64,000 nucleotides of DNA from Pseudodesulfovibrio alkaliphilus. Its GTDB lineage: Bacteria; Desulfobacterota; Desulfovibrionia; Desulfovibrionales; Desulfovibrionaceae. How positions within the stretch are numbered: position 1 is the first letter of the stretch; each line of letters begins with the position of its first letter. The notes under the pieces are model-generated. The model worked only from the letters and a program-made list of their open reading frames with translations, was not told the DNA's origin and ran no database searches. The stretch is taken from positions 1 to 64,000 of the forward strand of contig NZ_WODC01000001.1 in the NCBI RefSeq assembly GCF_009729555.1, in the 5' to 3' direction. Of the stretch, positions 3,032-21,436 are shown in pieces. The translations under genes were made by a program, and so were the position numbers.

Positions 3032-3934
3032 CTATGCAGTGGCCTCGGTATGCACGACCTGTCCGGCCTGGTCGTACATAAGGCCGCAGCGCAGGTCGAA
3101 GTGACGGTTGACGCTCATGGTCGGGCATGCTCCGTTGAGAGCCACCTGGACCACAGTGGAACCCAAAAACGCCTTTTCCGGGTCCATCTCCTTGGAGTGG
3201 TGGGCCATGATTATCAGATCGGCCCGCTTTTGCTGCGCCATGCGCAAGATTTCCATGGGCGGCTGGCCGTGGCAGACCCCGAAGGAACAATCGGAAACGC
3301 CGTCCAGACGCGGCCCGTATTCGTTGACAAGACGGGCCTCCACATCCCCCGCGCTCACGCCGGGCTCGACCACGTGCATGACCGTCAGGTTCGCCTTATA
3401 TTGGCGGGCCATCTGGCCCCCATAGTTCACGGCGCACTCGGCCTGGTCCGAAAAGTCCGTGGCCACAAGGATATTCCCAAACAACGGGTCCTTGCAGGCC
3501 ATGTCCTTGTGTACGATCATGACCGGGCAGCGCGCCTTCTGACTGACGCGCTCAAGAGTGCTGCCCGCCATGCCCCACATCTTGGAGCGCTTCTCTTCAT
3601 ATTCCTTGGTGTGCGGCCCCATGACGATGAGGTCGGTATTCTTCTTGCGGGCCAAACGCAGTATCTCGGCATGGGGGATGCCCGGAATGACGTTGATCTG
3701 GTACTGCGCGATGCCACTGAGGATGTCGCCGTACATCTCCTGAATCTGCCCCTTGATCCGCTCGGTTTCGCCCGAGGGCTCAAGGTGCTCCATGGAACCC
3801 CACCCCTGGGCCATTCCCGCCACGTGGGCCAGGTAAAGCTTTGCCTCGAACTTCTTGGCGAACTCAGCTGCCGCAATGACCGCGCACTTGTCCACGCCAG
3901 AAGGCGTGACACCGACGATGATGTCCTTAAACAT
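3032..3934 (-). CDS. Universal stress protein, two Usp domains
   Basis: The 300-aa protein consists of two tandem UspA domains (about residues 1-140 and 145-285). Each begins with a beta strand of the DIIVG or NILVATDFS type and ends with the nucleotide-loop region GMAGSTLERV or FLGSTVVQV. The second site keeps the G-S-T-V form of ATP-binding Usps. Usp proteins are soluble and bind ATP/AMP under stress or energy limitation. Here the gene overlaps the 3' end of hdrB by 8 bases, with GGGAGGGAATC before its ATG, so it is translationally linked to the Hdr complex. A role in sensing energy state or stabilising the complex is inference. Confidence 0.85.
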   Translation of the reverse strand: MFKDIIVGVTPSGVDKCAVIAAAEFAKKFEAKLYLAHVAGMAQGWGSMEHLEPSGETERIKGQIQEMYGDILSGIAQYQINVIPGIPHAEILRLARKKNTDLIVMGPHTKEYEEKRSKMWGMAGSTLERVSQKARCPVMIVHKDMACKDPLFGNILVATDFSDQAECAVNYGGQMARQYKANLTVMHVVEPGVSAGDVEARLVNEYGPRLDGVSDCSFGVCHGQPPMEILRMAQQKRADLIIMAHHSKEMDPEKAFLGSTVVQVALNGACPTMSVNRHFDLRCGLMYDQAGQVVHTEATA

Positions 3935-4919
3935 GATTCCCTCCCTTGTTGAGGTTGTTCATCTTTCCAGTCCGTGCCTGGTCCGGTATGCTCTGTTCTG
4001 CCCCGGCCGCCCGGCCCGGCTCGGCGCCTTCGGCCTGGAGCGTGACGCTCCAGGCCCGGGTTTCAATGCCGCGCCTGGCTCCAGCGTTCAGTGTCAGGTT
4101 CTTGCCAAGCTGCACCTCCGACTCGCCAAGCCCCATGGCAAGCCCCATGATCTGCGTCAGATAGAGCACCGGAATCCGGCGGCCTCCTGCCTTGACCGCG
4201 TCTCCCTGGTAGGCTTCGAGATTCATCTGGCACAGCGGGCATACCGTGACCACGGCGTCGGCACCGGCGGCCTGGTCGAGAATGGCGGCCACGGAGCGTA
4301 GCGCCACATCGCGATGGCCGACCATGAGCGAAGCGCCGCAGCAACGGTTGCCGCACTCCCATTCATGCACCTCGCCGCCCATGGCCCGGATGATCGGCTC
4401 CATGGACGTCGGTCTGCCCGGCGAGTCGAACACGGCATAGGGCCTGAGAATCTGACAACCGTAATAGGGGGCCAACTTCATGCCCTCCAGGCTGCGGGTC
4501 ACCTTCTGGGCCATGATCCCCGCGCCCACGTCGTTGAGGAGCACATCCAGCAGATGGCGCACCGGCACACCGCCCCGGTAGGTCAGGCCGGATGCGGCCA
4601 GCACTTCGTTGACTTGGCCGTGCAGATGTCTCTCGCCCACCACCTCGCGGTTGACCTTGAGCAGGTTGAGATAGCAGGCGCTGCACGGGGCGAGAATGTC
4701 CATGCCCGGCAGCGCATCCTGGGCGATGGCCAAGTTGCGGGCGGGCAAGGCATAGTTCATCAGCTTGCTCACCGGCTCGGCCGCACTCGCTCCGCAGCAA
4801 GTCCAGTCAGGAATCTCGACCAGCTCCGCGCCCAGCCGGACCATGACCGCCCGGACCGAAACATCGAACTCGCGTGCGCTTTCCATGAGCGAGCAACCTG
4901 GGTAATATGCGTACTTCAT
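3927..4919 (-). CDS. hdrB: Heterodisulfide reductase subunit B
   Basis: The 330-aa catalytic Hdr subunit contains both CCG domains in full: C9, C41-C42, C79xxC82, and C155, C193-C194, C227xxC230. In HdrB of methanogens these residues hold two non-cubane [4Fe-4S] clusters that split the disulfide substrate. The last 40 residues are a low-complexity Ala/Glu/Gly tail beyond the normal family end. The start ATG overlaps the hdrC stop as ATGA (4916-4919), so the two subunits are translationally coupled. Sulfate reducers do not make CoM-S-S-CoB as methanogens do, so the natural disulfide substrate is unknown; DsrC is one possibility (inference). Confidence 0.9.
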   Translation of the reverse strand: MKYAYYPGCSLMESAREFDVSVRAVMVRLGAELVEIPDWTCCGASAAEPVSKLMNYALPARNLAIAQDALPGMDILAPCSACYLNLLKVNREVVGERHLHGQVNEVLAASGLTYRGGVPVRHLLDVLLNDVGAGIMAQKVTRSLEGMKLAPYYGCQILRPYAVFDSPGRPTSMEPIIRAMGGEVHEWECGNRCCGASLMVGHRDVALRSVAAILDQAAGADAVVTVCPLCQMNLEAYQGDAVKAGGRRIPVLYLTQIMGLAMGLGESEVQLGKNLTLNAGARRGIETRAWSVTLQAEGAEPGRAAGAEQSIPDQARTGKMNNLNKGGNHV

Positions 4920-5485
4920 GATCCCGCCTCCATCTGTCTGGCCTTGGCAAACATGGGGCCGAGCCTTCCTCGCTGGGCGCGGCTTGGCAGATGCAGCTTG
5001 CCCTTGCCGAGCATCCTGAGCCCAAGCGGCAGAAACGCCATTGGCAATCTCGGGTCCATACGCCGTAGAAAGTACCCCTGCATCATGCTTGCCTCCTGGA
5101 GCCGCCCGTTGGCCTCCACATCGCTCATGAACGCCTCGTAGAATGCTCCGTTGCGTCTTGCCTGCCTCGCCCCGTCGAGCCGGGCCAACCGCTTGAGCGC
5201 CCCCATGGCCGATGTCAGCCTGAGGCCCCGCGGGCAACGCAGGGTGCACATGTAGCACGACGAGCAGAGCCAAAATGTCCGACTCTTGAGGATATCATCG
5301 ATCATGCCGAACTGGACCATCCGCCACATGCGGCGCGGGGTAACGTCCATGGCGTACCAGTTGGGGCAGGAGGCGGTGCAGGTGCCGCACTGCATGCACG
5401 CCCCCACCATGTCCCGCAGCTCGGTCAGCGCGATACGGGTTTCATCTCCTTCCGGGCTCCATGTCCTTGTGATCGTTTCGCTCAT
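4916..5485 (-). CDS. hdrC: Heterodisulfide reductase subunit C
   Basis: The 189-aa protein has the two ferredoxin-type cluster motifs of HdrC: C30/33/36/40 followed by Pro, and C74/77/80/84 followed by Pro. They relay electrons between HdrA and HdrB. The spacer MWRMVQFGMIDDIL between the motifs is typical of HdrC. The gene begins 16 bases after the large HdrA-like gene and ends in an ATGA overlap with hdrB, giving a tight A-C-B order. No transmembrane segment is present, so this belongs to the soluble HdrABC class and not the cytochrome b-linked HdrE type. Confidence 0.9.
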   Translation of the reverse strand: MSETITRTWSPEGDETRIALTELRDMVGACMQCGTCTASCPNWYAMDVTPRRMWRMVQFGMIDDILKSRTFWLCSSCYMCTLRCPRGLRLTSAMGALKRLARLDGARQARRNGAFYEAFMSDVEANGRLQEASMMQGYFLRRMDPRLPMAFLPLGLRMLGKGKLHLPSRAQRGRLGPMFAKARQMEAGS

Positions 5486-5501: not shown

Positions 5502-8500
5502 CTATGCCGGTTCTTCCAGGGCTGCGTCGATAACCGCCATCATCGGCCCGTCGTGGAAGCCCCGGAGTATGGTCGCGCTGTTGGGGCACACGGCCGCGCA
5601 TGCCCCGCACCCCTGACAGAGCAGTTCGTCCACGGCTATGCGCCCGGCGTCCATGTCCAGAGAACGAGCGCCATAGGGACAGGCAGTCACGCACGCCTGG
5701 CACAGGGAACAAAGGGAGTGGCGCACCTGGGCCACCACGGTTTCCCGGGTGATTCTCTCGGCGTTGAGAATGCGCAGGGCGCGCTGTCCCGCCGCCTTGG
5801 CCGAGGCAATGGTCTCGTCCATGCGCCGGGGAGAATGGGCCACGCCGCACATGTAGATGCCCTGCTTGAGAAAATCCACGGGACGCCACTTGAAATCGGC
5901 CTCGCGGTAGAATCCGTCTCCATCCACCTCGACGCCGAATATTTCGAGCAACTCCTCCACGTCGTTGGGTTCCAGGCCGCTTGACAGGGAGACCATATCC
6001 GGCCGAAAACGGACCTCGGCCCCCAGCACAGGGTCGCGTCCCGTGACCACTGGCCCGTCTTCCTCGAATGTCACGGCGGGCCTGGATTCGTCATCGTAGC
6101 GAATGAAGATGGCCCCGACCTTGCGCGCCTGCGTGTAATAGGTCTCAAGAAATCCCTGGGCCATGATGTCGCGGTAAAAGACGTAGACAGGCAGGTCAGG
6201 GTTGCGCTGCTTGAGGGTGAGGACATTCTTGAGCATTTCCGGGCAACAGACCCGGCTGCAATATTTCCTGTCGTCGTCCGGGGCGCGCCAGCACTGGATC
6301 ATGACAACGGAGCCCAGAGCCCCGGCGTCGATGGCGCCTGTGGCCAGCCCTTCCTCCAGTCCCAAATGGGTCATGACCGACTTGTGGACGCACAGGCCGC
6401 TTTCATAGACCTTGGCCTCGTGGCCGCCGGTAGCCAGGACGGTCACTCCGTGCTCCAGGGGAAACACCCCCTGTGGGCTGGCAATGGCCGATCGGAACCT
6501 GCCGGCGCTGCCGCGCGAAAGCACCACTCGCGAATCCTTGAAAACCTTGATGTTCGGATGCTTCTGCACCTGTCCGATCAACTCCTCCATGAATTTTCGC
6601 GGGTCCGAGCCGTCGAGCTGGGTGTGCAGACGCATGGCCAGGCCCCCGAGTTCCTCTTCGGATTCCACGAGACAGACGCCATACCCCTGATCCGCAATGG
6701 TCATGGACGCAGTCATCCCGGCCAGTCCGCCGCCGACCACCAGCGCAGAGCGTGCCACATCCACCATGACTGACGGGGGTACCGGGTCCGCCCCCTGGAG
6801 CCTGGCCACGGCAGTGGCCAGGGCCGCATAGATATCCTTTTCTGCCTTGACCTTCCGGGCCTGGGCTTCTGTATCGTCTGTCAGGTCAAGCCCGAAGGTG
6901 GGTGTATAGATGTCCACCACATCCATGAGGGCGGGATTGAGCCCGATGGTCCGTCCGAGTTCCTTGAGGCGGGGAATATAGGCATAAGGCATGCAGGCTC
7001 CGATCAACACCCGGTTGGGTCCGAATTCGGACACGCCCTCCCTGATCTCGTTCCAGCCCGCTTCGGTACAGGCGCTCCGCACGGGCATGACCCGGCATAC
7101 GGAGTGGACATCGGCCATCCGCGCACTCAGCGCCTCCAGGTCCACCGCCTGCCCGAGGGTGGGGCAGGAGGCGCACACGGCCACAAAGGTCCGGGGCGGC
7201 TCCCTGGAGACGTCCGGATAAGACGGCTCCGGCTCGCCGCCGATACCGGCCAGCACATCGTAGACCTTGATGATCCGCGATGCAGCCGAGGCAGCGGCGC
7301 CAGCCTGAATGACCGACTCCGAAATGTCCCTTGGCTCGCCGAAGGCCCCGGCTGAAAACACGCCGACGCGGCTGGTCCGCTCCGGGGCGTAGGGCTGGGT
7401 CTGGACAAACCCCCACTCGTTGAGGTCGATATCCGTGGTCAGGGCGAACCTCTCCATGCCGTGCGGCGGGCGGGCCCCGGCGGCCAGAACCACCATGTCG
7501 TAGTGTTCTGCCACCAACTCGCCCTCGTCGGTCATGAATTCAATCTTCAGCCCGCCGTCTCCGTTATCGGGCACCACCGAATGGGGCCTGCTGCGCACGA
7601 AACGAACGCCCTCCTCGGTCTCGGCGCGGTTGCGGTACCGCTGGTATCCCTTGCCTGTGGTCCGCATATCCATGTAGAAAATGGTGGTCTCCAGGTCGCC
7701 GTCTGCGGCCTGTCTGGCCAGAACGGCCTCCTTGATGGAGAACATGCAGCACACCGCCGAACAGAAGTCCGCCCCCTTTTGCACGTCGCGGGAGCCCACG
7801 CACTGTATCCATGCTATACTGCGCACAGGGGCGTTATCGCCCGGCCTGAGCAGCCTGCCTCCGGTGGGGCCGGTGTGGCTCATCAGCCGCTCGAACTCCA
7901 CTGCGGTCAGCACGCCAGGATGGTCGTAACACCACACGTCCTGCCCTCCTTCCGGGTCCATGGACGGGGTGTAGCACTCGAATCCGCCGGCCAGAACCAC
8001 GGCACCGACCTCAAGCTCCTCCACCGTGTCCGACATGATGCGCATGTAGAGCTTGTCGAGCCAGGGGACGAAACGCTTGGCGAAGAGGGGCTTGATCAAA
8101 TATTCCCGGGCACCCTGCATGACCAGGTCTGCCCCTTGTTCCTCTTGTCCCGGATCAACCATAATCACCACGGGCATATCCGGCCGCAGCTCGTGACAGC
8201 GGGCAAGCAGGCGATCGGCGGCCATGTCGGCGAGATTCGTACCTGCCAGCACCAACCCTGTGCCCATGTCCGCGGCGAGCATGTCCAAGGCATCGCTGCC
8301 CGAAGCGGCGAAACGCAGGGAGAAGTTCTCCTCGCCCAGGCTCTGGCTGACCACGGCCGCTGTTTCCTGGTCGCCATCCACCACCAGGATGTTGAAATCC
8401 TTGCGCTCTTCGAACTTGAAGTCAATGGCCCCGGTGGGGCACGCCTCATGGCATTTCCAGCAGCGCTGACAGTTTTCGAGATCAACCACGTAGTGATTGG

Positions 8501-8960
8501 GGATGGCGTGGGGTACCGGCAGGTGTACGGCAGCCCGCATGGTCAGCCCGGCGTTATATTCGCTGGGGACGCGAACGGGACAGACCTCTGAACAAAGACC
8601 GCAGCTGACGCACTTAGCCGGATCGATCAACGGGGACTTGCGGTTCAAAGAGACGAAGAACTTGCCCGGTTCGCCCTCCAGGGAGGTCAGCTCGGTGGAA
8701 AGCATGATGTCGATGTTGTCGTGAAAAAGTCCCTTGCGCAGACAGAACTGGCTCGATGAGTCGCGAGCCATGAGCGGCAGCATCTTGCACATGCCGCAGT
8801 GGTCCGAGGGAAACTGGTGGTCCAGCTGACTTAAGATGCCACCGTGATTGGGCCGCCTGTCGATGAGGGCCACCTTGTGGCCGGTGACGGCGAGGTCCAG
8901 GGCGGCCCTGATGCCTCCGATACCGGCCCCGACCACCAATGCGCCATATTGCTTTCTCAT
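5502..8960 (-). CDS. Double HdrA-like flavoprotein with inserted degenerate receiver domain
   Basis: This 1152-aa protein is about twice the usual HdrA length. Residues 1-188 hold a first FAD fold (GAGIGG at 11-16) and a ferredoxin module (C117-C127 and C164-C174). Residues 189-310 form a CheY-like receiver. Residues 311-570 complete the first HdrA module, restarting at VGAVVLAGGFE exactly where ordinary HdrA continues after CPTGAID. Residues 590-1070 are a second HdrA module with its own thiol-rich N-terminal part and a second FAD motif (VVGGGLAGM, 741-749). A C-terminal two-cluster ferredoxin lies at about 1083-1126. The receiver keeps the acidic D195-G-D197 and K290-P but has Gly240 where the phosphorylated Asp should be. 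The start is set by GGAGGACAGT before ATG at 8960; longer readings give Arg-rich non-HdrA sequence. It lies between the FrhB-like gene and hdrC and probably replaces or supplements HdrA as the bifurcating flavin subunit. Confidence 0.88.
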   Translation of the reverse strand: MRKQYGALVVGAGIGGIRAALDLAVTGHKVALIDRRPNHGGILSQLDHQFPSDHCGMCKMLPLMARDSSSQFCLRKGLFHDNIDIMLSTELTSLEGEPGKFFVSLNRKSPLIDPAKCVSCGLCSEVCPVRVPSEYNAGLTMRAAVHLPVPHAIPNHYVVDLENCQRCWKCHEACPTGAIDFKFEERKDFNILVVDGDQETAAVVSQSLGEENFSLRFAASGSDALDMLAADMGTGLVLAGTNLADMAADRLLARCHELRPDMPVVIMVDPGQEEQGADLVMQGAREYLIKPLFAKRFVPWLDKLYMRIMSDTVEELEVGAVVLAGGFECYTPSMDPEGGQDVWCYDHPGVLTAVEFERLMSHTGPTGGRLLRPGDNAPVRSIAWIQCVGSRDVQKGADFCSAVCCMFSIKEAVLARQAADGDLETTIFYMDMRTTGKGYQRYRNRAETEEGVRFVRSRPHSVVPDNGDGGLKIEFMTDEGELVAEHYDMVVLAAGARPPHGMERFALTTDIDLNEWGFVQTQPYAPERTSRVGVFSAGAFGEPRDISESVIQAGAAASAASRIIKVYDVLAGIGGEPEPSYPDVSREPPRTFVAVCASCPTLGQAVDLEALSARMADVHSVCRVMPVRSACTEAGWNEIREGVSEFGPNRVLIGACMPYAYIPRLKELGRTIGLNPALMDVVDIYTPTFGLDLTDDTEAQARKVKAEKDIYAALATAVARLQGADPVPPSVMVDVARSALVVGGGLAGMTASMTIADQGYGVCLVESEEELGGLAMRLHTQLDGSDPRKFMEELIGQVQKHPNIKVFKDSRVVLSRGSAGRFRSAIASPQGVFPLEHGVTVLATGGHEAKVYESGLCVHKSVMTHLGLEEGLATGAIDAGALGSVVMIQCWRAPDDDRKYCSRVCCPEMLKNVLTLKQRNPDLPVYVFYRDIMAQGFLETYYTQARKVGAIFIRYDDESRPAVTFEEDGPVVTGRDPVLGAEVRFRPDMVSLSSGLEPNDVEELLEIFGVEVDGDGFYREADFKWRPVDFLKQGIYMCGVAHSPRRMDETIASAKAAGQRALRILNAERITRETVVAQVRHSLCSLCQACVTACPYGARSLDMDAGRIAVDELLCQGCGACAAVCPNSATILRGFHDGPMMAVIDAALEEPA

Positions 8961-9012: not shown

Positions 9013-10155
9013 TCAGGCCATGTGCGACACCGCCTCCTGGAACTCGTCCTCCTTGAACACCGAAAGCGGCGGCGGCTCCTGAAGGCTGCGCCCCGGTTCG
9101 TAGCCAAAGCTCTCCTGAGTCCGCGCCGCGACGGTTCGGAACAGTTCCATGACCGGGATGTCGTTAGGGCAGGCGTTGGAACACTGCCCGCAGCCCACGC
9201 AGGCCATGCTCATGTGCGCCATGCGGGTGAGATGGAAAAAGATGGTGTCCGTGGGCAGCTTGAGGCTGCCCTTACGCTTGGCCCACTCCACATACTGCCA
9301 GGGCTTGTGCTCGAAAACGTCGGTGTTGAAGACGCATTCCTTGCAATAGCAAACCGGACAGGCCACCCGACAGTTGTAACAGTTGACGCAGCCGCTGAGG
9401 TACTCGGAAAGATCGGTCAGGGTTCCCGTCACCGCCTTGGTCCTCTCGATCATGGCGTCGCGATAGGCGGTTCTGGCCTCCACCAGGGAGGCCAGAGCCG
9501 TGTCGCGCCCGTTGGAAGACTGGATCTCCTGCAACCCCAGAGCACTGAGCAGGGCCTCTCCCCGAGCGCTGTCGGCCATGGCAGGAATACTCTCGCGCAG
9601 ATCAGCCCCGGCCACGCCCACAACGATGTCCGCATTGGTCGGCGAGGGGTGCTCGCAGGCCATGCAGGCGGTGGCGATCCCAACCCCGTCGGCAGCCGCG
9701 TCCGCCCCGGCCAGGCCATGGAAGCCGAGAGTGGCCTCAAGCGGGTCCCGATCGCCCAGGAACAGCCTGTAGTTGGCGTTGTCGTATGCCCCCAGACAGT
9801 CCATGCCGATCAGAACGACATTGTCGAAGCTGCCTTGGTTGAGCTTGACCAACTCGACAAAAGCCCGGATCTCACAGGGGCGCATGACCGCCGCGATGCG
9901 CTCGCCTGCCTGGCCCCGCGTCAGGCGCGACAGGAGTTTGGCGCTGCTCATTGGAAAGGCCGGAGCAAGCGGGTCCGCGCCCAAGAGTTGCTCCGGATCG
10001 GTCACCAGGGTGGGCATGGGCATGCCCCTGCCGAAATGATGGACAGGCACCAGGACGCCGCCGACGGCCCCGTCGGCCATTAGCCCCTTCAGAAACCCCT
10101 GCAGGGCCAGGATCGGATTGTTCCCTTCCACCCGTATCTTTGCTGTGGTCGCCAT
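9013..10155 (-). CDS. FrhB/FdhB-like iron-sulfur electron-input subunit
   Basis: The 380-aa protein resembles the F420-hydrogenase/dehydrogenase beta-subunit family, which binds a flavin and passes electrons from F420, formate dehydrogenase or another donor into Hdr. Cys-rich blocks are visible at about residues 256-278 (CVNC, CRVACPVCYC) and in a ferredoxin motif near 315-330 (CVGCGQCSNACP). The middle contains the family-like MRPCEIRAFVEL and GMDCLGAY segments. No NAD-binding FlxA-type domain is encoded nearby, so this protein may be the port for the external donor. It sits between the MvhD-like gene and the large HdrA-like gene with short spacing. The donor identity is unknown. Confidence 0.8.
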   Translation of the reverse strand: MATTAKIRVEGNNPILALQGFLKGLMADGAVGGVLVPVHHFGRGMPMPTLVTDPEQLLGADPLAPAFPMSSAKLLSRLTRGQAGERIAAVMRPCEIRAFVELVKLNQGSFDNVVLIGMDCLGAYDNANYRLFLGDRDPLEATLGFHGLAGADAAADGVGIATACMACEHPSPTNADIVVGVAGADLRESIPAMADSARGEALLSALGLQEIQSSNGRDTALASLVEARTAYRDAMIERTKAVTGTLTDLSEYLSGCVNCYNCRVACPVCYCKECVFNTDVFEHKPWQYVEWAKRKGSLKLPTDTIFFHLTRMAHMSMACVGCGQCSNACPNDIPVMELFRTVAARTQESFGYEPGRSLQEPPPLSVFKEDEFQEAVSHMA

Positions 10156-10174: not shown

Positions 10175-10600
10175 TTAGACCACGGCCATGGAACGCGCTT
10201 CCATGGGACCGAGTTCCCTGATCTCGTTGATGAAATGGTTCACCGTGGCCGCAAATTCGTTGCCCTCGCTGGCTCCCACCCAGGTCAGCTTGACCCGGCC
10301 CTTGTCAATGCCGAACTGAGGCAGGATTTCGTTTAAGAGCTTGATTCTGCGCCGGGCCTTGTAGTTGCCGTTAATATAGTGACAGTCACCGGGATGGCAG
10401 CCGCTGACCAGCACGCCGTCCGCGCCGGAGAGCAGGGATTTGACAATGTACTTGGGGTCCACCATGCCGGTGCACATCATCCGTACCAGCCGCAGGTTGG
10501 GCTGCTGAAGCATGCGCGAGGTTCCGGCAAGGTCTGCCGCGGTGTAGGTGCACCAGTTGCAGACAAAGGCCAGAATGGTCGGCTCGAACTCGGTGTGCAT
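10175..10600 (-). CDS. MvhD-like hydrogenase iron-sulfur subunit (FlpD family)
   Basis: The 141-aa protein matches the MvhD/FlpD family almost from end to end. It has FVCNWCTY near the N-terminus (C14, C17), then CTGMVDP (C43), and SGCHPGDCHYINGN (C68, C73). These cysteines bind one [2Fe-2S] cluster that carries electrons from a hydrogenase or dehydrogenase to HdrA. No hydrogenase large or small subunit is encoded nearby, so the protein presumably works with the FrhB-like subunit next to it. The gene lies 9 bases downstream of hdrA and 19 bases upstream of the FrhB-like gene, in one operon. Confidence 0.9.
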   Translation of the reverse strand: MHTEFEPTILAFVCNWCTYTAADLAGTSRMLQQPNLRLVRMMCTGMVDPKYIVKSLLSGADGVLVSGCHPGDCHYINGNYKARRRIKLLNEILPQFGIDKGRVKLTWVGASEGNEFAATVNHFINEIRELGPMEARSMAVV

Positions 10601-10609
10601 GACTGCCTC

Positions 10610-12634
10610 CTAAGCGTGTTCGCCCGTTTGGGCGTGAGGTTGCATCGCATGTTCCGCCCCAGCGTGAGCCGGAGTGGCGGCGGGCATCATGCCCAGCAGC
10701 CCGTCGATCTCGTCGAAGAGCTGGTTTTCCGTAAAATGTTTGATCTGGGCCGCTCCGCTCGGGCAGTATCCGGCGCAGCTGCCGCACCCTTTGCACATGG
10801 CCTCGTTGATGACCGACACCTGACGGCGCTCGTCGAACTCAATGGCCGAGTAGGCGCACAGGTCAATGCACACCTTGCAGCCGATGCAGATGTCCGGGTT
10901 GATCCACGAGGTGGTCGGAGAGATGGAAACCTTGCCCCTGGCTGCCAGAGCCAGGGCCTGAGCCGCCCCGCCCGAGGCATGGGATACCGCGTCCGGGATG
11001 TCCTTTGGCCCCTGGCAGGCCCCGGCCAGAAACACGCCGTCCGTGGCCGTGGAGACCGGCCCGAGCTTGGGATGCTCCTCAAGGAAGAATCCATCCTGTC
11101 CCTGGGCCACTCCGAAGACGCGGGCCACCTCGGCCATGTCCGCCCGGGGCTCCATGGCTGTGCAAAGCACCACCATGTCCACCGGCACACGCACATTCAT
11201 GCCGAGCAAGGTATCCTCGCCGACCACCACCAGTCTGCCGTTCTCCTGCACTATCTCGGCGGGACGGCCACGGATGAAGGTGACTCCCTCCTCCTGGACC
11301 CTCTTGTAGAACTCCTCGTACCCCTTCCCGAAGCAGCGCATGTCTATGTAGAAGTTGTAGACTTTCGCATGGTGGCCCACCTTGTCCTTGATCAGGTGGT
11401 CGTACTTGAGGGCGTACATGCAGCAGGTGCGCGAACAGTATTCGTGATAGTTCCTGTCGCGACTCCCCACGCAGTGGATGATGGCCACGCTCTCTGGGGA
11501 TTCCCCGTTCTTCATGACGATCCTGCCGCCCGTGGGCCCCACGGCGTTGTTCAGCCGTTCGAACTGCAACGCGGTGTAGACCTCGTCAAAACGGCCGAAC
11601 CCGTATTCGGTCATGGGCGTCGGATCCATGGCGTCATACCCCGTGGCCAGGACAATGCTGCCCACATGAAAAACCTCCCGGCTCTCCCGCATGGCGTAGT
11701 CTATGGCCCCGGTGGGACATACCTGCTGGCACAAACCGCACTTGTCTTTGGTGATCTTGCGACAGATGGCGCCGTCGATGACAGGAGTGTTGGGCACGGC
11801 CTGAGGCGAGTTGCGGTAGATGGCCTTGCGCATGCCAAGCCCCTCGTTGAATTCGTTGGGCGCCTTGGTCGGGCACTTTTCCAGGCACGCCCCGCAGCCT
11901 GTGCAGATGTCCGCGTTGATGTAACGCGGCCGATGCAGGACTGTGACCGTGTAGTTGCCCACAAACCCGGATACGTCCACCACCTCGCTCCAGGTCATCA
12001 GGTTGATGTTTGGCTCCTGGGAGACGGCCACCATCTTGGGGGTCGAGATGCAGGCCGCGCAGTCGAGGGTTGGAAATGTCTTGTCGAACTGGGCCATGTG
12101 CCCGCCGATGGAGGGCGATTTTTCCACCAGATGCACCCGGTGGCCGGACTTGGCGATATCGAGGGCGGCCTGGATGCCCGCAATGCCCGCACCCACGACC
12201 ATGACGTCGGGCAACACGTCCACCTCACGCGAGAACAGCTCCTGGTGCCTGCCCACCCGCTCCACGGCGGCTTCCACGATGTGCTTTGCCTTGGCCGTGG
12301 CCTCTGCCGGGTCTGCGGTGATCCACGAGCAGTGCTCGCGGATGCAGGCGTGCTGCATCAGATAAGGGTTGAGCCCTCCCCTGGCGCATGCTTTCTGAAA
12401 CGTCTTCTCGTGCAGACGGGGCGAACAGGACGCCACCACCACCCGGTTCAGACCGTGTTCGCCGATGTCCCTGATGATCATCTCCTGACCGGGATCGGAA
12501 CACATGAACTGATAATCGCGAGATACCGCCACGTTCCTGATCCGCCCCGCATACTCGGCGACATCGGCGCAATCGACCTTGCCCGCAATGTTCGAGCCGC
12601 AATGACACACGTACACGCCGATCTTCTCAGCCAT
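10610..12634 (-). CDS. hdrA: Heterodisulfide reductase subunit A
   Basis: The 674-aa protein is a standard-length HdrA. It has an N-terminal thioredoxin-reductase-like part beginning GVYVCHCGSN, an FAD motif VGAGIAG (147-153), the HdrA signature DCAACISTPKM (191-201), ferredoxin sites at C244-C254 and C292-C306, and a C-terminal two-cluster ferredoxin (about 575-640). HdrA holds the FAD at which electron bifurcation takes place. A Cys is present throughout; no in-frame UGA was needed. The start is set by GAGGAGGGG upstream of ATG at 12634. It is the first large gene of the operon. A canonical HdrA plus a second, fused HdrA-like protein in one operon suggests a heteromeric flavoprotein core (inference). 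Confidence 0.92.
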   Translation of the reverse strand: MAEKIGVYVCHCGSNIAGKVDCADVAEYAGRIRNVAVSRDYQFMCSDPGQEMIIRDIGEHGLNRVVVASCSPRLHEKTFQKACARGGLNPYLMQHACIREHCSWITADPAEATAKAKHIVEAAVERVGRHQELFSREVDVLPDVMVVGAGIAGIQAALDIAKSGHRVHLVEKSPSIGGHMAQFDKTFPTLDCAACISTPKMVAVSQEPNINLMTWSEVVDVSGFVGNYTVTVLHRPRYINADICTGCGACLEKCPTKAPNEFNEGLGMRKAIYRNSPQAVPNTPVIDGAICRKITKDKCGLCQQVCPTGAIDYAMRESREVFHVGSIVLATGYDAMDPTPMTEYGFGRFDEVYTALQFERLNNAVGPTGGRIVMKNGESPESVAIIHCVGSRDRNYHEYCSRTCCMYALKYDHLIKDKVGHHAKVYNFYIDMRCFGKGYEEFYKRVQEEGVTFIRGRPAEIVQENGRLVVVGEDTLLGMNVRVPVDMVVLCTAMEPRADMAEVARVFGVAQGQDGFFLEEHPKLGPVSTATDGVFLAGACQGPKDIPDAVSHASGGAAQALALAARGKVSISPTTSWINPDICIGCKVCIDLCAYSAIEFDERRQVSVINEAMCKGCGSCAGYCPSGAAQIKHFTENQLFDEIDGLLGMMPAATPAHAGAEHAMQPHAQTGEHA

Positions 12635-12655: not shown

Positions 12656-12925
12656 TCAGCGAATGGTTTTGCCGTTGTTCAACTCCAGGGTCAGCTCGCC
12701 CACAAGCCGCTTGAGTTTTTCATTCTCCGCGGCCAAGTCGGCCTCGGACTGGGGACCGGGCTGCCTTTCAAAGACTTGGTGGCAGTTTTCAAGAAAATGT
12801 CCCCGCCACTTGTAGTACTGCCCGGGACGAAGATCGTGCGCCCGGCAAAGGTCATTGACGCATCCTCCGGTAAGCCCCTCCAGCACGATCCTCGCCTTTG
12901 TCTTGGAATCCCATTTGCGCTTCAT
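12656..12925 (-). CDS. Small HTH protein of the IS3-type transposase OrfA family
   Basis: The 89-aa protein begins MKRKWDSKTKARIVLEGLTG and continues with a helix-turn-helix (VNDLCRAHDLRPGQYYKWRGHFLE), the arrangement of IS3-family OrfA proteins. The C-terminus is a short coiled segment (AAENEKLKRLVGELTLEL), also typical of OrfA. There is no OrfB integrase, no inverted-repeat ends and no target duplication. It is 21 bases upstream of hdrA in the same direction, with AAGGAGGT before the start. It therefore looks like a retained or domesticated DNA-binding protein at the head of the operon and not a live insertion sequence. It could be a remnant with no function. Confidence 0.75.
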   Translation of the reverse strand: MKRKWDSKTKARIVLEGLTGGCVNDLCRAHDLRPGQYYKWRGHFLENCHQVFERQPGPQSEADLAAENEKLKRLVGELTLELNNGKTIR

Positions 12926-13499: not shown

Positions 13500-14912
13500 A
13501 TGTCCGAGACAGACATCCTGATCATTGACGGCGACGTCGGCTACACCGCCAAACTGTGCGAAGATCTCGCCAGACATGGCGTGTCCGCCGTCTGTTGCAA
13601 CTCCCTTGCCCGGGCCATGGGAATGTTGCACACCGGAAACTATCGGGTGGTCCTGCTCGGCGACGACCTTCCAGACAAGGGGATAGACGCCCTGGCGGCC
13701 ATTCGCGAAATCCCGTCCTTTCCCGAAGTCATCCTCGTCTCACGCAACAGGGACCCGGACGTGGCGGAACGATGTATTCGCGAAGGCGCTTGGGACTATC
13801 TGCTCAAGCCGCCCAACATCCAGCGCTTGTTTGTGCTTGTCGATCGCATAGGAGACTATTGGAGAAAGAGGTCTTCGACCCGTCCGCCCGTGGCGCTGCG
13901 CAGGGGAGGCATTGTGGGCAGCAGCCGGATGCTGCAGCTCGCACTTGACAACGTGGCCGTGGCCGCCGCCAACGAAAGCAACGTCATGCTCATTGGCGAA
14001 ACAGGCACGGGCAAGGAATTGTTCGCACGGGCCGTCCACGAAAACAGCCCGCGCCGGAAGAAATCGTTTGTGGTGGTGGACTGTGCGGCCCTGCCCGACA
14101 CCCTGGCCGAAAGCCTGCTTTTCGGTCATGAACGCGGGGCGTTCACCAGCGCCGACAGCCAGACCATCGGCCTGATCAGGCAGGCGGACGGCGGTACGCT
14201 GTTCCTTGACGAGGTGGGAGAACTGCCGCTGCCCATTCAGCGGGTATTCCTGCGCGTGCTGGAAAGCCGGACATTCAGGCCCGTGGGGGCAACCACCGAG
14301 GTGATGAGCGACTTCAGGCTGGTTTCCGCCACCAATCGCGACCTGGAGGCAATGGTGGAAAGTGGTGACTTCAGACGCGATCTCTTTTACCGTCTGCACG
14401 GCTCCCACATCCAGTTGCCGTCTCTGCGGGAAATCTCCGAAGACATCAACGAAATGACCTGTCACTTTATCAGGCGTCATTGCCAGCGGCTCAACCTGGA
14501 GAACAAGGGCTTCTCTCCCGATTTTCTGGCAGCGCTCCTTGATTACGACTGGCCCGGAAACATCCGCGAGATGATAAATACCGTCGAACAGGCCATCGCC
14601 CAGGCCGGGTCGGAGAGCATCCTCTACCCTCGCCATCTGCCTCGAAGGCTCCGCTCGCGAGTGGTCAGGCGCACGTTGGGCGGCGAGCCAGCCCCCGCCG
14701 AGAGCAAGCACCAGGATTTCTGCCACGACGCCTCCCCCCTGCCCTCCCTAAAGAGCTATCGCGCCATCCAGACCGCCCTCATCGAACAGGACTACCTTAA
14801 CCGGCTGATGGATCAGACCGGCGGCGACATTCGCCGGGCCTGCGAGGTTTCCGGGCTTTCCCGCGCCCGCCTTTATTCCCTGATCAAACAGCACGGAATC
14901 GAAAGAGGCTGA
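13500..14912 (+). CDS. Sigma-54 activator with degenerate receiver domain
   Basis: The 470-aa protein has a receiver (1-125), an AAA+ domain (about 138-370) and a C-terminal Fis-type helix-turn-helix (436-466). Walker A is GETGTGKE (166-173) and Walker B is GGTLFLDE (231-238). The receiver has the acidic DGD and Lys103, but the phospho-acceptor position is Gly54 (LLGDDLP), with Asp only at the next position. The sigma-54-contact loop is GAFTSA (213-218) instead of GAFTGA. The start ATG at 13500 directly follows a G-run and gives a normal receiver N-terminus; upstream extension adds no recognisable domain. It is divergent from the Hdr operon and most likely controls it, perhaps without phosphorylation. 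This role is inference from position and family. Confidence 0.88.
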   Translation: MSETDILIIDGDVGYTAKLCEDLARHGVSAVCCNSLARAMGMLHTGNYRVVLLGDDLPDKGIDALAAIREIPSFPEVILVSRNRDPDVAERCIREGAWDYLLKPPNIQRLFVLVDRIGDYWRKRSSTRPPVALRRGGIVGSSRMLQLALDNVAVAAANESNVMLIGETGTGKELFARAVHENSPRRKKSFVVVDCAALPDTLAESLLFGHERGAFTSADSQTIGLIRQADGGTLFLDEVGELPLPIQRVFLRVLESRTFRPVGATTEVMSDFRLVSATNRDLEAMVESGDFRRDLFYRLHGSHIQLPSLREISEDINEMTCHFIRRHCQRLNLENKGFSPDFLAALLDYDWPGNIREMINTVEQAIAQAGSESILYPRHLPRRLRSRVVRRTLGGEPAPAESKHQDFCHDASPLPSLKSYRAIQTALIEQDYLNRLMDQTGGDIRRACEVSGLSRARLYSLIKQHGIERG

Positions 14913-15008: not shown

Positions 15009-16376
15009 CTATTCCGCGGCCGCTTCGGCCTCGTCCATCTTCTTGAGCTTGCGCCAGAGCCCGGCGCGGCTGATGCCGAGAACCTTGGCCGCTTCGAGCT
15101 TGTTGTGCCCCACTGCGGCCATAACCCGTCGGATGTGCTCCTCTTCGATCTCGGCCAGGGTAGGCAGGCGTTCGCCATGCGGACGGCCCGGAGCCGTTTT
15201 CGCGGGAGAAACCCCGGATTTCTGAAAACGCCTGGGCAGATCCTCACGGCGGATCAACCCTTCGCGCCGGACAATGACTCCTCGTTCAACGATGCTTTCC
15301 AGCTCGCGGACGTTGCCGGGATAGGGATAGTCCATGAGCAGATCCAAGACCTCGGTGTCGAACCCGTCAACTTTCATGTCAAATGACTGGTTGTAACAGG
15401 CCAGAAAGTAGTTGCACAGCGGGGGTATGTCATCGCGCCGTTCCCGCAAGGGAGGCACATGCAGGGTAAAGACGTTGAGCCGGTAGTAGAAATCCTCGCG
15501 AAACTGGCCTGCGCGGATCTTGGCCTTGAGATCCTGGTTGGAGGTGGCCATGATGCGCACGTCCACATGCACCTCCTGCCCCCCGCCCACGCGGTGGATG
15601 GTGCGGTCTTGCAACATGCGCAGCAGCTGGCTTTGCATGGGCAGGGGAGTGTCTCCCACCTCGTCGAAGAGAATGGTGCCCCCGGAGGCGGCCTCAAACA
15701 GGCCGGTGCTGCCCCGGCCGCCACCCGCCTCGGGCTCCTGGCCGAACAACTCCCTTGAGAGCAGGTCGTGGGAGAACGAGCCGCAGTTCACAGCAAGAAA
15801 CCGGCCCCGCGTACGCGAACTCTTGCGGTGGATGGTGCGTGACAGCAACTCCTTGCCAGTGCCCGTCTCACCCAGGAGCAGCACGGTGCAGTCCAGAGCC
15901 GCCACCATGTCCACGTCGCGCTTGAGCTGCTGCATGGCCTTGGTCTGGCCGATGATGCTGCGTTCCTCGCCGGGCCTGTCCATGCCTGCACCCGGAACTA
16001 CGGTGGACTCCGCCGCCGGCTCTTCCTTCAGGCTCTCCAGGCGTTCCCATAGCCGCGACATATTCTGCTTCTCAAAGTACTCGGTGTGCTGATCCTGGGC
16101 CGCCTGACGCAGGGTATTTCCGCCAAAGCCCGTGAGCAGGGCGGTGCGCATCCCCGGTCGCATTTCATGGAGTCTGGCGATGGTTTCCAGACCATCCATA
16201 TCCGGCATACGCATATCCACCACAGCCAGGGCGGGTTCCTTTGTGGCGGCCAGCCTCAAGGCTTCGGCGCCGCTTGATACGGCGACAACGTCGAAGCCGC
16301 GGCTCTCCATGCGTTGTACCAGGGTATCCCGGAAGCTTTCGTCGTCGTCTACGAGAAGGATAATGCGTCTGCTCAT
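15009..16376 (-). CDS. NtrC-family response regulator lacking GAFTGA
   Basis: The 455-aa protein has a complete receiver (Asp54, EYFEKQ containing the conserved Lys near 103), an AAA+ domain with Walker A GETGTGKE (169-176) and Walker B GGTILFDE, and a C-terminal Fis helix-turn-helix (LEAAKVLGISRAGLWRKL). The loop that normally reads GAFTGA and touches sigma-54 is replaced by a Gly/Glu-rich stretch (QEPEAGGGRGSTGLFE, 213-228). The protein may therefore act on sigma-70 promoters or as a repressor, as known for some NtrC relatives; this is inference. I start at the ATG at 16374-16376, because the receiver begins there. The upstream alternative at 16481 adds 35 residues outside any domain. It is last in the TauE-led minus-strand operon and the only output protein of the array. 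Confidence 0.87.
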   Translation of the reverse strand: MSRRIILLVDDDESFRDTLVQRMESRGFDVVAVSSGAEALRLAATKEPALAVVDMRMPDMDGLETIARLHEMRPGMRTALLTGFGGNTLRQAAQDQHTEYFEKQNMSRLWERLESLKEEPAAESTVVPGAGMDRPGEERSIIGQTKAMQQLKRDVDMVAALDCTVLLLGETGTGKELLSRTIHRKSSRTRGRFLAVNCGSFSHDLLSRELFGQEPEAGGGRGSTGLFEAASGGTILFDEVGDTPLPMQSQLLRMLQDRTIHRVGGGQEVHVDVRIMATSNQDLKAKIRAGQFREDFYYRLNVFTLHVPPLRERRDDIPPLCNYFLACYNQSFDMKVDGFDTEVLDLLMDYPYPGNVRELESIVERGVIVRREGLIRREDLPRRFQKSGVSPAKTAPGRPHGERLPTLAEIEEEHIRRVMAAVGHNKLEAAKVLGISRAGLWRKLKKMDEAEAAAE

Positions 16377-16537
16377 GGTGTTTCGGAGCTCTCTGCTCAA
16401 AGAACCGGCATGTGAGGGTTGAAAGGAGTGCGGGAGGTGCTCATTGAGCGAAACACCCCCCGCGTCCCGTTGGGTTTGCATGGTCTTGTGCCATCAAGGC
16501 GCTGTTCTCTCGACTCGCTCCCCATGGCTTGAGAATG

Positions 16538-17335
16538 CTATTTGCGACTACTCTTGTCGATAGCCTCGGCGTTGTCCAGGTCGCCGCCCGTCGCCATGCC
16601 CGCCGCGGCCATGGCGTCTTCGATACGCCGGGGCACGCGCTTGAGAAACGCCCAGAAGCTGCCCATGCTCTGCTTCTCGAAGTATTCGGTATTCAGAGCC
16701 ATGGTTGCCTCGCGCAGCTTATCACTGCCAAAAGCCGTGAGCAGCATGGTTTGCATCCCCGGCTGCTCGCGCTTGAGCCGGGTGATCAGATCCAGGCCGT
16801 CCATATCGCCGAGCTTGAGGTCCACCACGGCGAAATCGATTTTCTCCCTGGCTGCGATCTCGAGGGCTTCGGCACCGCTGCTGGCCGTGAACACCTCGAA
16901 GCCCTTGAGTAACACGCGCTGCGCCACGGTGTCCAGAAAGGCTTCCTCGTCATCTACCACCAGGAATGCGGGACGCCTGGAAAAACCGGCCAGGAAGGCC
17001 CAGAAGCCGCTCATGTCCTGCTTCTCGAAATAGGCGGTGTTCAGAGCGTCGCTGGCCTCGCGCAACTTGTCGCTGCCGTAGCCCGTGAGCAGGAGAGTCT
17101 CCAGTCCGGGCTTGTCCCTCTTCAGCCGGGTGATAACGTCGAGCCCGTCCATGTCCGGCAGCTTGAGATCAATCACGGCCAGATCAATGTCGTTTTCCGC
17201 GGCCAGCCTGACGGCTTCGGCCCCGGTCGCTGCCTCCAGGGTGTTGAAGCCCTTGAGCCTCACGCGTTCGGCCAGGGTTTCCAGAAATTCTGCCTTGTCG
17301 TCCACGAGAAGGACGGTTATTTTCTTGTCACTCAT
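16538..17335 (-). CDS. Tandem two-receiver protein
   Basis: The 265-aa protein consists of two receiver domains joined by a short linker: phospho-acceptors Asp56 (AVIDLKLPDMDG) and Asp172 (AVVDLKLGDMDG). Each has the DD pair, a T/S switch (LLTGYG, LLTAFG) and a Lys within a shared YFEKQ-M motif. There is no output domain; the last 30 residues are a disordered tail. Such proteins serve as phosphate sinks or relay nodes. The two halves are clearly duplicates of each other and related to the receiver of the regulator encoded downstream. The gene lies between the small membrane protein and that regulator. Confidence 0.9.
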   Translation of the reverse strand: MSDKKITVLLVDDKAEFLETLAERVRLKGFNTLEAATGAEAVRLAAENDIDLAVIDLKLPDMDGLDVITRLKRDKPGLETLLLTGYGSDKLREASDALNTAYFEKQDMSGFWAFLAGFSRRPAFLVVDDEEAFLDTVAQRVLLKGFEVFTASSGAEALEIAAREKIDFAVVDLKLGDMDGLDLITRLKREQPGMQTMLLTAFGSDKLREATMALNTEYFEKQSMGSFWAFLKRVPRRIEDAMAAAGMATGGDLDNAEAIDKSSRK

Positions 17336-17368
17336 GGGAAACTCCTTGTGTTTCGCTGTGGACGGTTC

Positions 17369-17797
17369 CTAGTGTCCACCGCTGCCGAATATGCCCGAGG
17401 CCGCCAGAGACAATACCACCACTTCGGCCACGCATATGCCGAAATAGGTCCAATCCTTGCGCCGCACGAAACCTGGCAGCAGCACGAGGTAGCAGACGAT
17501 GGTCAGCAGGGCCAGCAGGGCCATGCCCAGGAAGTTGAGATAATCCCCTTTTCCGAGGAGCGCCACCCAGCCCCAACCGCGAGGGGCGTTGGTCACCTGG
17601 ATGAATTGCTGCACGTTGAGGTGCCAGTTGCGGACAACCATTTCCAGCTCGATATGTGCACCAATGATGCCGGTCACATAAAGAATGTAAGTGACAACCA
17701 TGACCAGAATCCCCAGATAGGCACCCATGCCGAGGATGTTTGCGTAGATGATCTGCTCCGGCATTGGCCGGATATCGGGATCGGTGTGCTGACTCAT
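17369..17797 (-). CDS. Small membrane protein linked to TauE/SafE
   Basis: The 142-aa protein has about three hydrophobic spans: residues 17-45, 86-112 and 117-139. A moderately polar loop (ELEMVVRNWHLNVQQF) lies between the first two. No Cys pair or His cluster suggests cofactor binding. I do not recognise a named family. It follows the TauE/SafE gene by 48 bases in the same direction, so it is likely to be an accessory subunit of that exporter. That role is inference from context. Confidence 0.7.
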   Translation of the reverse strand: MSQHTDPDIRPMPEQIIYANILGMGAYLGILVMVVTYILYVTGIIGAHIELEMVVRNWHLNVQQFIQVTNAPRGWGWVALLGKGDYLNFLGMALLALLTIVCYLVLLPGFVRRKDWTYFGICVAEVVVLSLAASGIFGSGGH

Positions 17798-17845
17798 ACC
17801 GTTTTCTCCTTGATTTGCGCTCAGTTCGTCCGGCTTGCCGACTTT

Positions 17846-18853
17846 CTAACCGAGCAGTCCGATGTGCAATCCCTTGTCGATGGCCTTGAGCCCCGCAAAG
17901 AGAAGGACCACAATCACCATGTAGCGGATGAATTTGGGCTTGGCTATGCTGAGCAGCCTCACGCCCACAAAGGAGCCGAGCATCAACCCGATGATGGAGG
18001 GAATGGCCATCAGCGGAATGACGCAACCCTGATTGATGTAGATCCAGGCGGCCGAGGTGTCGGTGATGGAAAGGAGGAACTTGCTGGTGGCCACGGATAT
18101 TTTCAGCGGTGCGCCCATCATCAGGTTGAACACCGGCACGTTGGCCCAGCCGGCACCCAGGCCGAACATGCCCGCCAGTATGCCGATGAGGATGAAAGTA
18201 ATCAGGGCCTGGGGGGTGCGGTGGGTTTTCCAGGAGACTTTCTGGTTCATGGATTCGTCAAAGTAGGTGCCGCCTATGCCAAAGGCCATGCCTAGAGCGT
18301 CTTGCTTTTTGATGTCCGGTATGGCCGAATTTTTGCTCATGAGCAACAGAACCGCTATGCCGACAATGGTGGTACCCAGGCAGATCTGGAGGATGTCGGG
18401 GTTGAGCTGGGAAAGGTGCAGGCCGAGAACGGCCCCGCCGATGGAGCTGGCCGAGGCGATGAGGGCCATGGGAAGCGCCATGCGCAGACTGGCCAGATTG
18501 CGTCGCAGCAACCCCGGCCCGGCGGCCAGGGCTCCGGCCAGGGCGACCATCAGGCCCGCACCGCGCACAAAGTCGAGATGAAAAGGGAAAAAGCCGCTGA
18601 CCAGAGGGACATAGAGAACGCCCCCCCCCACTCCCGCCAGCACGGCGATGATGCCCAGGACAAAACAGAACACCAGCAGCACCAGGGGCCAGAACCACCA
18701 GGGCTGTGTGTCCATGGCGGCCACCGCGGCCCCTTCGGCGGCCCCGGCGGCCGCCGCCGGGTCGGACATGAGGAAGACAAGGAGTGTGAGCGAGACCAGG
18801 GTGCCCGCTGTTGCCCAGGCAATGGGTGGCAATGTGAAGTTGAATCCGCGCAT
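17846..18853 (-). CDS. TauE/SafE family anion exporter
   Basis: This membrane protein (335 aa from the chosen start) has the family's two repeated halves, each with GVGGG- or GLGAG-type glycine turns (AGVGGGVLYVPL, GLGAGWANVPVFNLMMG), and about eight or nine hydrophobic spans. TauE/SafE proteins export sulfite, sulfoacetate or other small organosulfur anions. The substrate cannot be read from the sequence. AAGAGGTTTCAGC precedes the ATG at 18851-18853; an upstream start at 18892 would add 13 residues. It is the first gene of the minus-strand operon with the small membrane protein, tandem receiver and NtrC-like regulator, so its expression or activity is probably tied to the array. Confidence 0.88.
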   Translation of the reverse strand: MRGFNFTLPPIAWATAGTLVSLTLLVFLMSDPAAAAGAAEGAAVAAMDTQPWWFWPLVLLVFCFVLGIIAVLAGVGGGVLYVPLVSGFFPFHLDFVRGAGLMVALAGALAAGPGLLRRNLASLRMALPMALIASASSIGGAVLGLHLSQLNPDILQICLGTTIVGIAVLLLMSKNSAIPDIKKQDALGMAFGIGGTYFDESMNQKVSWKTHRTPQALITFILIGILAGMFGLGAGWANVPVFNLMMGAPLKISVATSKFLLSITDTSAAWIYINQGCVIPLMAIPSIIGLMLGSFVGVRLLSIAKPKFIRYMVIVVLLFAGLKAIDKGLHIGLLG

Positions 18854-18894
18854 GCTGAAACCTCTTGCTGTGATTTTTTGAAACAAGGGCATTT

Positions 18895-18958
18895 ACAAAC
18901 GAAACAGTTTGTGCTTAGTTGGCAACGGCATTTGTGTCAATACTTTTATCTTTGTCAA
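18895..18958. promoter_or_regulatory. Divergent control region with palindromic operator
   Basis: An inverted repeat ACAAAC-N6-GTTTGT sits at 18895-18912. Two TTGACA-type -35 boxes for the leftward operon are at 18935-18940 and 18953-18958. The first, with a 17-base spacer to TAAGCA, would place transcription start inside the inverted repeat. On the plus strand TTGGCA (18919-18924) and TACTTT (18941-18946) may serve the rightward receiver gene. Confidence 0.4.
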
Positions 18959-18968
18959 AAATTGAAAC

Positions 18969-19328
18969 ATGCGAATCCTTCTTGTTGACGATGAGGTCGG
19001 GTTTGTGGAGGCCCTTGCGGAACGGCTGCTCCTGCGAGGGTTCCGCCCTGTGGTCGCTCTCGACGCGACCCAGGCGCTGCGCACCCTGGAGGCGGAGTCT
19101 TTCGACGCCATGGTTCTGGATCTGCGTCTGCCGGACGCAAACGGTGCAGAGGTGCTGCGCCATGCCAGGAGACATTGCCCGGCCATGTCCGTGCATGTGC
19201 TCACCGGCCACGGCACGGACCTGGATCGCGAGCTGTGTCTCGGCCTGGGAGCTGTTTCATTTATCAACAAACCGATCGGTGTGGAAAAGCTCGCCCTGCT
19301 CTTGCGTGGCGAAGAGGAGGCGGTATGA
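18969..19328 (+). CDS. Single-domain receiver
   Basis: A stand-alone CheY-like receiver of 119 aa. It has the acidic pair at residues 7-8, Asp51 as phospho-acceptor (MVLDLRLPDANG), a Thr in VLTGHG and NKPIG with the conserved Lys. There is no output domain. The start lacks a strong Shine-Dalgarno. Its stop overlaps the ATG of the sensor kinase as ATGA, so the two are produced together. It probably receives phosphate from that kinase. Confidence 0.9.
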   Translation: MRILLVDDEVGFVEALAERLLLRGFRPVVALDATQALRTLEAESFDAMVLDLRLPDANGAEVLRHARRHCPAMSVHVLTGHGTDLDRELCLGLGAVSFINKPIGVEKLALLLRGEEEAV

Positions 19329-21085: not shown

Positions 21086-21434
21086 CGATGAGGAAAAGTT
21101 TGTTTCGGCCCTGGCCCAGCGGCTTGCTCTGCGGGGCTTTGTGGCCGAATGGGCAGTGTCCGGCGCCGAGGCCCTGGCCAAGGCATCCCGCACCACGTTC
21201 GATCTGGCGATCCTGGACGTGAAAATGCCGCGCCTTGGGGGCGTGGATCTCAAGCGCGAGTTGAGCCGGATCATGCCGGGTACGCGGTTCATCTTTTTCA
21301 CAGGACACGGCAGCGAGGACGAGTTCAAGGTCTGTTCGGCCGAGGCCTCCTGCTATCTGGTCAAGCCGATGCCCATCGACGAACTGGTGGTCAACATCCA
21401 CCGGGTCATGGGCATTTCGCCCAAGGAGAATTGA
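21057..21434 (+). CDS. Single-domain receiver, GTG start
   Basis: A 125-aa receiver with the acidic pair at residues 10-11, Asp54 (AILDVKMPRLGG), FFTGHG and Lys in YLVKPMPIDEL. It starts with GTG at 21057 behind GGAGGAG and overlaps the end of the sensor kinase by 29 bases. No output domain is present. Its sequence is closer to the receivers at 18969 and 23458 than to the YFEKQ type read leftward. Confidence 0.9.
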   Translation: MSALKILLVDDEEKFVSALAQRLALRGFVAEWAVSGAEALAKASRTTFDLAILDVKMPRLGGVDLKRELSRIMPGTRFIFFTGHGSEDEFKVCSAEASCYLVKPMPIDELVVNIHRVMGISPKEN

Positions 21435-21436
21435 AC

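Follow-up and report, generated by a model that had tools for sequence, protein, structure and literature searches.

In the methanogen Hdr complexes (5odc, 8rvu, 7bkb), HdrA has what we take, from 5odc, to be an architecture of FAD domain, inserted ferredoxin module and C-terminal ferredoxin, residues 313–316 of 5odc_A being presumably where the inserted module returns to the FAD domain. The hdr loci of Desulfobacterium autotrophicum HRM2 are described, in the available passages of PMC2702500, as hdrA/mvhD/fdhB/hdrBC clusters, and a CheY-like regulator and a histidine kinase are named in the legend of the figure of these loci. Pseudo-receivers and aspartate-less receivers, which lack the residues needed for phosphotransfer, are the subject of PMC4395418 and PMC12632262, the available parts of which make no mention of Hdr proteins. 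In Desulfovibrio vulgaris the response regulator DVU0749 has Gly in place of the acceptor Asp and no nearby kinase (PMC3333781, as far as its available passages go). No description of a receiver inside HdrA was found in the open-licence literature searched (titles, the starts of abstracts and passages), including the parts so covered of PMC2702500, PMC5109826, PMC4103992, PMC4046663, PMC5296606, PMC3333781, PMC12632262 and PMC4395418.

The stretch of DNA analysed here (the window; 64,000 nucleotides from Pseudodesulfovibrio alkaliphilus) resembles the HRM2 loci in having an hdrA/mvhD/fdhB/hdrBC cluster, a likeness drawn by description only, and differs from them in carrying a receiver inside HdrA, which the available passages of PMC2702500 do not mention. 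On its minus strand lie hdrA1, a second HdrA-like gene (10610..12634, 674 aa, recognized by Pfam and NCBIfam and assigned to the same operon by gene order), mvhD/flpD (10175..10600, 141 aa, PF02662), a gene for an FrhB/FdhB-like Fe-S protein (9013..10155, 380 aa, PF04432 and Fer4_8), the gene for the receiver-bearing protein, here called HdrA-REC (5502..8960, 1152 aa plus stop), an hdrC-like gene (4916..5485, 189 aa, Pfam and NCBIfam), an hdrB-like gene with CCG domains (3927..4919, 330 aa, from sequence) and a gene read from its sequence as a universal stress protein (3032..3934, 300 aa). The order hdrA1, mvhD, frhB-like, hdrA-REC, hdrC, hdrB is widely common, and a universal-stress-like gene lies 3′ of hdrB in most loci with enough flank in the window's family, taken here as Desulfovibrionaceae (Pseudodesulfovibrio, Desulfovibrio and Solidesulfovibrio being among its members). 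The window also encodes an 89 aa protein (12656–12925, minus strand), similar small proteins being found in the corresponding place upstream of hdrA1 in loci L018, L028 and L051; we take it to look like an IS3-type transposase OrfA, and it is perhaps a domesticated DNA-binding protein. At the other end of the operon, genes that by eye resemble a TetR regulator and EtfB/EtfA lie 3′ in L021 (9576–12111), and L019 and L020 have genes of comparable length there; such loci may be linked to beta-oxidation.

HdrA-REC is a tandem HdrA-like flavoprotein with Pfam matches to two pyridine-nucleotide/FAD folds, to four Fer4 stretches and to Response_reg. With 5odc-type HdrA it shares the FAD domain with an inserted [4Fe-4S] ferredoxin module and the C-terminal ferredoxin; the first half of the FAD domain with its inserted module (residues 1–184; 8409..8960, minus strand) aligns with 5odc_A 146–313 and has the invariant Cys. 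The AlphaFold2 model of the whole protein (78-row alignment; mean pLDDT 87, pTM 0.86) finds its best PDB matches in the HdrA chains 8rvu/8rvy, 5odc and 7bkb, identity to HdrA of the methanogen complexes being 22–28% over the aligned part of the model. Unlike methanogen HdrA, HdrA-REC has a second FAD half after the first and, between the positions that match 5odc residues 313 and 316, a receiver. Its best NCBIfam models are HdrA types, with scores below the curated whole-protein cut-offs (622 bits against 1100 for HdrA2, 496 against 1400 for HdrA), and we use the name ‘HdrA-like’ for that reason; the protein is an HdrA-like, putatively electron-bifurcating flavoenzyme. Another HdrA-like match in the same genome (C1:717933–720947), which has one internal stop codon, we take to be adjacent qmoA–qmoB genes.

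The insert occupies residues 189–310 (8031..8396, minus strand), exactly as the original prediction had it; a CheY-like fold, placed between the ferredoxin module and the continuation of the FAD domain without a break in the frame, had also been proposed and was borne out. Response_reg (PF00072) matches residues 191–294 with 38.9 bits (cut-off 30.2, E 1.1e-9), the whole-protein model contains a complete CheY-type (βα)5 domain (strands 190–194, 214–218, 234–240, 264–268 and 286–289; helices 198–209, 221–230, 248–258, 273–281 and 294–310), and both this model and the sequence alignment to 5odc_A place the domain at the joint, in an open frame. The long α5 (294–310) continues in the model straight into the next strand of the FAD domain (312–323). 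Modelled alone, the insert reaches a pLDDT of 90 and, within the PDB, matches receivers best (3crn, TM 0.87; NtrC1 and DctD lower in the list), the nearest solved relatives by sequence being NtrC-family receivers (DctD, 4e-8). Canonical NtrC-family receivers (DctD 1qkk, FleR, LuxO, NtrC1) have the fold and register in common with the insert, but precede an AAA+ domain, whereas the insert sits inside a flavoenzyme. Chance similarity to receivers is ruled out by the Pfam score, the fold and the homologues, and a frameshift or assembly artefact by the open frame and by the identical position of the insert in homologues from other genomes.

Alignment to DctD and to the homologues agrees with the original prediction on G240 at the phospho-acceptor position (codon GGT, 8241..8243), V268 at the Thr/Ser switch position (8157..8159) and the retained conserved lysine K290 (8091..8093), all on the minus strand, and corrects it on the acidic pair, which had been described as kept. 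VVDGD of the window lies over LIDDD of DctD, and its DGD over DDE of 44 intact homologues, in the same register; the pair is thus D195–G196 (D195–G196–D197, 8370..8378, minus strand), D197 is the residue after the pair, and the proposed D195/D197 pair is one position off. It follows that two of the three receiver metal-binding acids (196 and 240) are lost. According to the available passages of PMC12632262, the first acid of a receiver holds the metal via water and the second holds it directly, so that loss of the second matters more than loss of the first. Of the residues found in canonical NtrC-family receivers, the window's insert has the Lys but not the second acid, the acceptor Asp or the switch Thr/Ser; on these residues the domain very probably cannot be phosphorylated, and, having a receiver fold without key catalytic residues, it is a pseudo-receiver as defined in the same passages. 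It resembles the pseudo-receivers and aspartate-less receivers of PMC4395418 and PMC12632262, as described in the parts available, in lacking the residues needed for phosphotransfer, and differs from them in lying inside a metabolic oxidoreductase and in having intact homologues that are often near kinase genes.

The search for homologues with and without the insert found both kinds, and the insert-bearing form is not unique to the window. Keeping the best 80 of 262 candidates gave 79 loci, 78 of them with usable open frames (L064, with a broken frame, gave no row): 44 have an intact receiver (DD, D, T, K), 16 an altered one, 17 were scored as having no insert (among them L074, a fragment that does not contain the insert site and is not assessable) and one, L069, has a different long insert. 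Fourteen of the altered receivers belong to the window's family, the other two being L046 and L066; outside Desulfovibrionaceae, therefore, 44 of the 46 readable insert-bearing loci among these best 80 of 262 are intact. Within the family, a full-length HdrA-REC match was found in 31 of 149 genomes, so that most genomes of the family sample are without the protein, and none of the 29 further rows from those 31 genomes has Asp at position 196, six of these rows being identical, in the region compared, to ones from the first search. No family sequence examined retains the second acid; position 240 holds G, S or D. A sample of the phylum (395 genomes, partly the same as those of the homologue search), searched with an intact query, gave at least 15 full-length receiver-bearing proteins, four from the window's family and 11 from others, and among the matches listed the receiver is intact in all 11 of the latter. 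The original prediction had named homologues with Asp at position 240, and phosphorylated, as evidence that would speak against it: the Asp-bearing homologues exist, and their predicted phosphorylation would be the other half of that statement. At the same site, the Bacillota homologue L069 (6001–10374) has a long insert that by eye resembles a GltD-type NAD(P)H oxidoreductase, which suggests that the ferredoxin-module/FAD joint is a general insertion point. In L068 and L073, orthologues without the insert, a stand-alone CheY-like gene (120–124 aa) and a PAS kinase follow the operon.

Altogether 107 homologues were aligned (78 from the first search and 29 from the family), 100 passed the length filter, and 77 chosen by hand from these, with the window, made up the 78 rows of alignment A1, used for the tree and the structure prediction. 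In the tree, built without the receiver columns and with support values from a quick search, the 66 rows with the insert group together as a clade (support 99), within which the 32 rows of the window's family form one clade (support 100) and the 34 intact rows another (support 94); the 12 rows without insert lie outside. A unique invention of Pseudodesulfovibrio is ruled out by this wider clade. Despite the missing second acid, 17 of the 32 family rows retain Asp at the acceptor position. L046 and L066, which are incomplete, have receivers that are not intact and were left out of the first tree, fall among the intact rows when added and so represent two further receiver losses. All this is most simply explained by a single gain of an intact receiver and three or more losses.

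We suggest, with a probability of about 75%, that the decayed receiver of the window is kept as a structural part, and that its intact counterparts in relatives probably place an electron-bifurcating enzyme under direct control by phosphorylation. On this view an HdrA-like protein of Desulfobacterota would have acquired an NtrC/DctD-type receiver at the ferredoxin-module/FAD joint, in what seems to have been a single insertion, and in most sampled lineages outside Desulfovibrionaceae the receiver would have stayed intact, probably phosphorylated by histidine kinases encoded near the operon. Phosphorylation of the receiver Asp would move α4–β5–α5, and the long α5, running into the next FAD strand, would displace the ferredoxin module with respect to the flavin, thereby gating electron flow. 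Sequence and gene linkage make the step from kinase to receiver Asp probable in the intact relatives; gating through the ferredoxin module is predicted from position alone.

The rates at which the two kinds of receiver evolve differ. The ratio of dN in the receiver to dN in the rest of the protein is 0.29–0.59 in nine intact pairs and 1.56–3.29 in 12 of 12 family pairs (21 pairs chosen by hand, with synonymous change near saturation in several and one intact pair without a dS value); in the intact clade the receiver changes at about half the rate of the HdrA body, whereas in the family it evolves faster than the body. Nevertheless, ω of the decayed receiver is below 1 (0.04–0.60) and the domain has been dropped in none of the 43 full-length family sequences compared, from which it follows that some function remains. 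By element, entropy (intact/decayed) is 0.00/1.62 at residues 195–197, 0.66/2.51 in α1, the kinase-docking helix of receivers, 0.11/2.33 in the switch loop, 0.31/1.98 in α4, 1.22/1.30 in α3 and 1.75/1.28 in α5. Thus the intact clade is nearly invariant at the acid pair, acceptor loop, switch loop and α4 and the decayed clade is not, whereas in the latter α3 is conserved about as well as in the intact clade and α5 more so, with R254 and E257 (α3) and W300, D302, K303, R307, S310 and D311 (α5 and linkers) strongly conserved. This pattern fits a loss of input and switching with packing or docking retained.

The same retention, the ω below 1 and the conserved residues of α3 and of α5 and its linkers, α5 exceeding even the intact clade, could be claimed for a degenerate receiver re-purposed in the window's family as a pseudo-receiver under the allosteric control of a ligand or partner, as the original prediction proposed. 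We regard this as unlikely: the family receiver outpaces the body in every pair compared, the faces usually used for input and switching (α1, acceptor loop, switch loop and α4) are the most decayed, and the replacements at the acceptor vary (G, S or D). The fast evolution of the receiver and the decay of these surfaces point to lost control and not to a new sensor, and the intact state of nearly all readable receivers outside the family, many with kinase genes nearby, likewise tells against a purpose-built site. What stands of the proposal is that an HdrA-like protein contains a pseudo-receiver, which is very probably not phosphorylatable; the conserved α3 and α5 residues may leave it a structural or partner-docking role.

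Histidine kinase genes were found near 23 of 30 intact loci (those with more than 3.5 kb of downstream genes); a second method, applied to 28 intact loci of 12 kb or more, found them near 20, the other eight having none in the flanks examined. Ten phylum-sample loci, partly repeating genomes of the homologue search, entered the 12-kb count, and seven of these have a kinase; the eleventh locus, L153, fell below the required length. Among controls, kinase genes lie near four of 20 receiver-less HdrA from the same phylum sample and four of 12 orthologues without insert. From the density of HATPase matches (961 in 55.6 Mb of 12 chosen genomes) a match is expected in about 19% of 12-kb flanks, a level far exceeded by 23 of 30 if the loci were independent, which related loci are not. 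Kinases also lie near eight of 13 family loci with decayed receivers and enough flank, and, with eight of 28 intact loci having none, closeness of a kinase does not single out intact receivers. In 14 intact loci the kinase, mostly about 600–780 aa, adjoins a REC–HATPase protein of about 375–450 aa (L034, L035, L038, L044, L047, L049, L054, L057, L061, L202, L203, L205, L206 and L208; domains confirmed by Pfam in L054). This enrichment near intact receivers, together with an intact-clade receiver that is more conserved than the enzyme and has an invariant acid pair, makes it highly improbable that the domain has been an inert spacer in all lineages and never signalled, a notion to which the receiver-less forms of the protein in other lineages lend some colour. 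That the window's receiver is still phosphorylated, at another residue and by an unlinked kinase, is scarcely credible, since the residue at 240 is not Asp, Ser or Thr, the second acid, which would bind the metal, is missing and the helix that faces the kinase has decayed, for all that K290 and D195 are kept and HATPase kinase open frames lie further along the window (18995–21082 and 22131–23381).

In the window, a sigma-54 response regulator (13500..14912, plus strand; Pfam and alignment) is encoded divergently, its own receiver having D–G–D with a Gly acceptor. A histidine kinase gene between it and hdrA1 is absent in the window, where an open-frame scan found no HATPase frame before 18995. 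In these respects (Gly acceptor, kinase-less surroundings) the regulator resembles DVU0749, by description only, in the available passages of PMC3333781. Recent insertion of the HdrA receiver from this adjacent regulator, an idea suggested by their common D–G–D and Gly-acceptor pattern, is ruled out because the insert is common to the whole clade and the regulator's receiver is intact in relatives. Further along, the window has a dense two-component cluster around a TauE-type exporter (15012–23865), with a sigma-54 regulator, a tandem-receiver protein, short receiver-like proteins, a dCache kinase, a HisKA-only protein and a REC kinase.

Twenty family genomes were chosen from the 31 with full-length HdrA-REC, and in all 20 the best match of the window's sigma-54 regulator adjoins the hdr operon. 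A kinase gene lies between regulator and hdrA1 in 13 of them (12 REC-bearing hybrids and a thirteenth, L141, known by its HATPase frame), and the regulator in every one of these has both DD and the acceptor Asp; where the kinase gene is absent (seven genomes and the window), all eight regulators have lost the acceptor, to Gly in seven and Ala in one. Since the kinase-less genomes fall in one clade, this represents mainly one event, or few independent ones. The HdrA acceptor does not track the kinase, being lost in five of the 13 with it and kept in two of the eight without, and the second acid of HdrA is lost whether or not the kinase gene is present; release of the enzyme arm therefore seems to have preceded loss of the kinase. 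We suggest that in the ancestor of the sampled family members input to the HdrA receiver was lost with the second metal-binding acid, and that the linked kinase probably kept its control over transcription, through the sigma-54 regulator next to the operon. The window's clade would then have lost the kinase gene too, and the regulator its acceptor Asp, the HdrA receiver's acceptor being lost as well in the window's closer relatives. The window protein would thus have no phospho-switch, its receiver remnant being held via α5 and α3 at the ferredoxin-module joint, and the enzyme would be unregulated or differently regulated.

How much energy anaerobes gain is determined by electron-bifurcating enzymes, and the rapid switching of flux through them is, to our knowledge, an open matter. 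An HdrA-like protein with an intact receiver and nearby kinase genes is well placed to serve as a test of whether bifurcation is controlled post-translationally, with the decayed Desulfovibrionaceae copies as natural loss-of-input controls. Reading from genes and sequences, we see about an even chance that central energy metabolism in many Desulfobacterota is a direct target of a two-component system, such that an operon-side kinase, by phosphorylating the built-in receiver, would gate the ferredoxin branch of an HdrA-type bifurcating enzyme, and that the window's lineage would have lost first the enzyme arm of this control and then the kinase.
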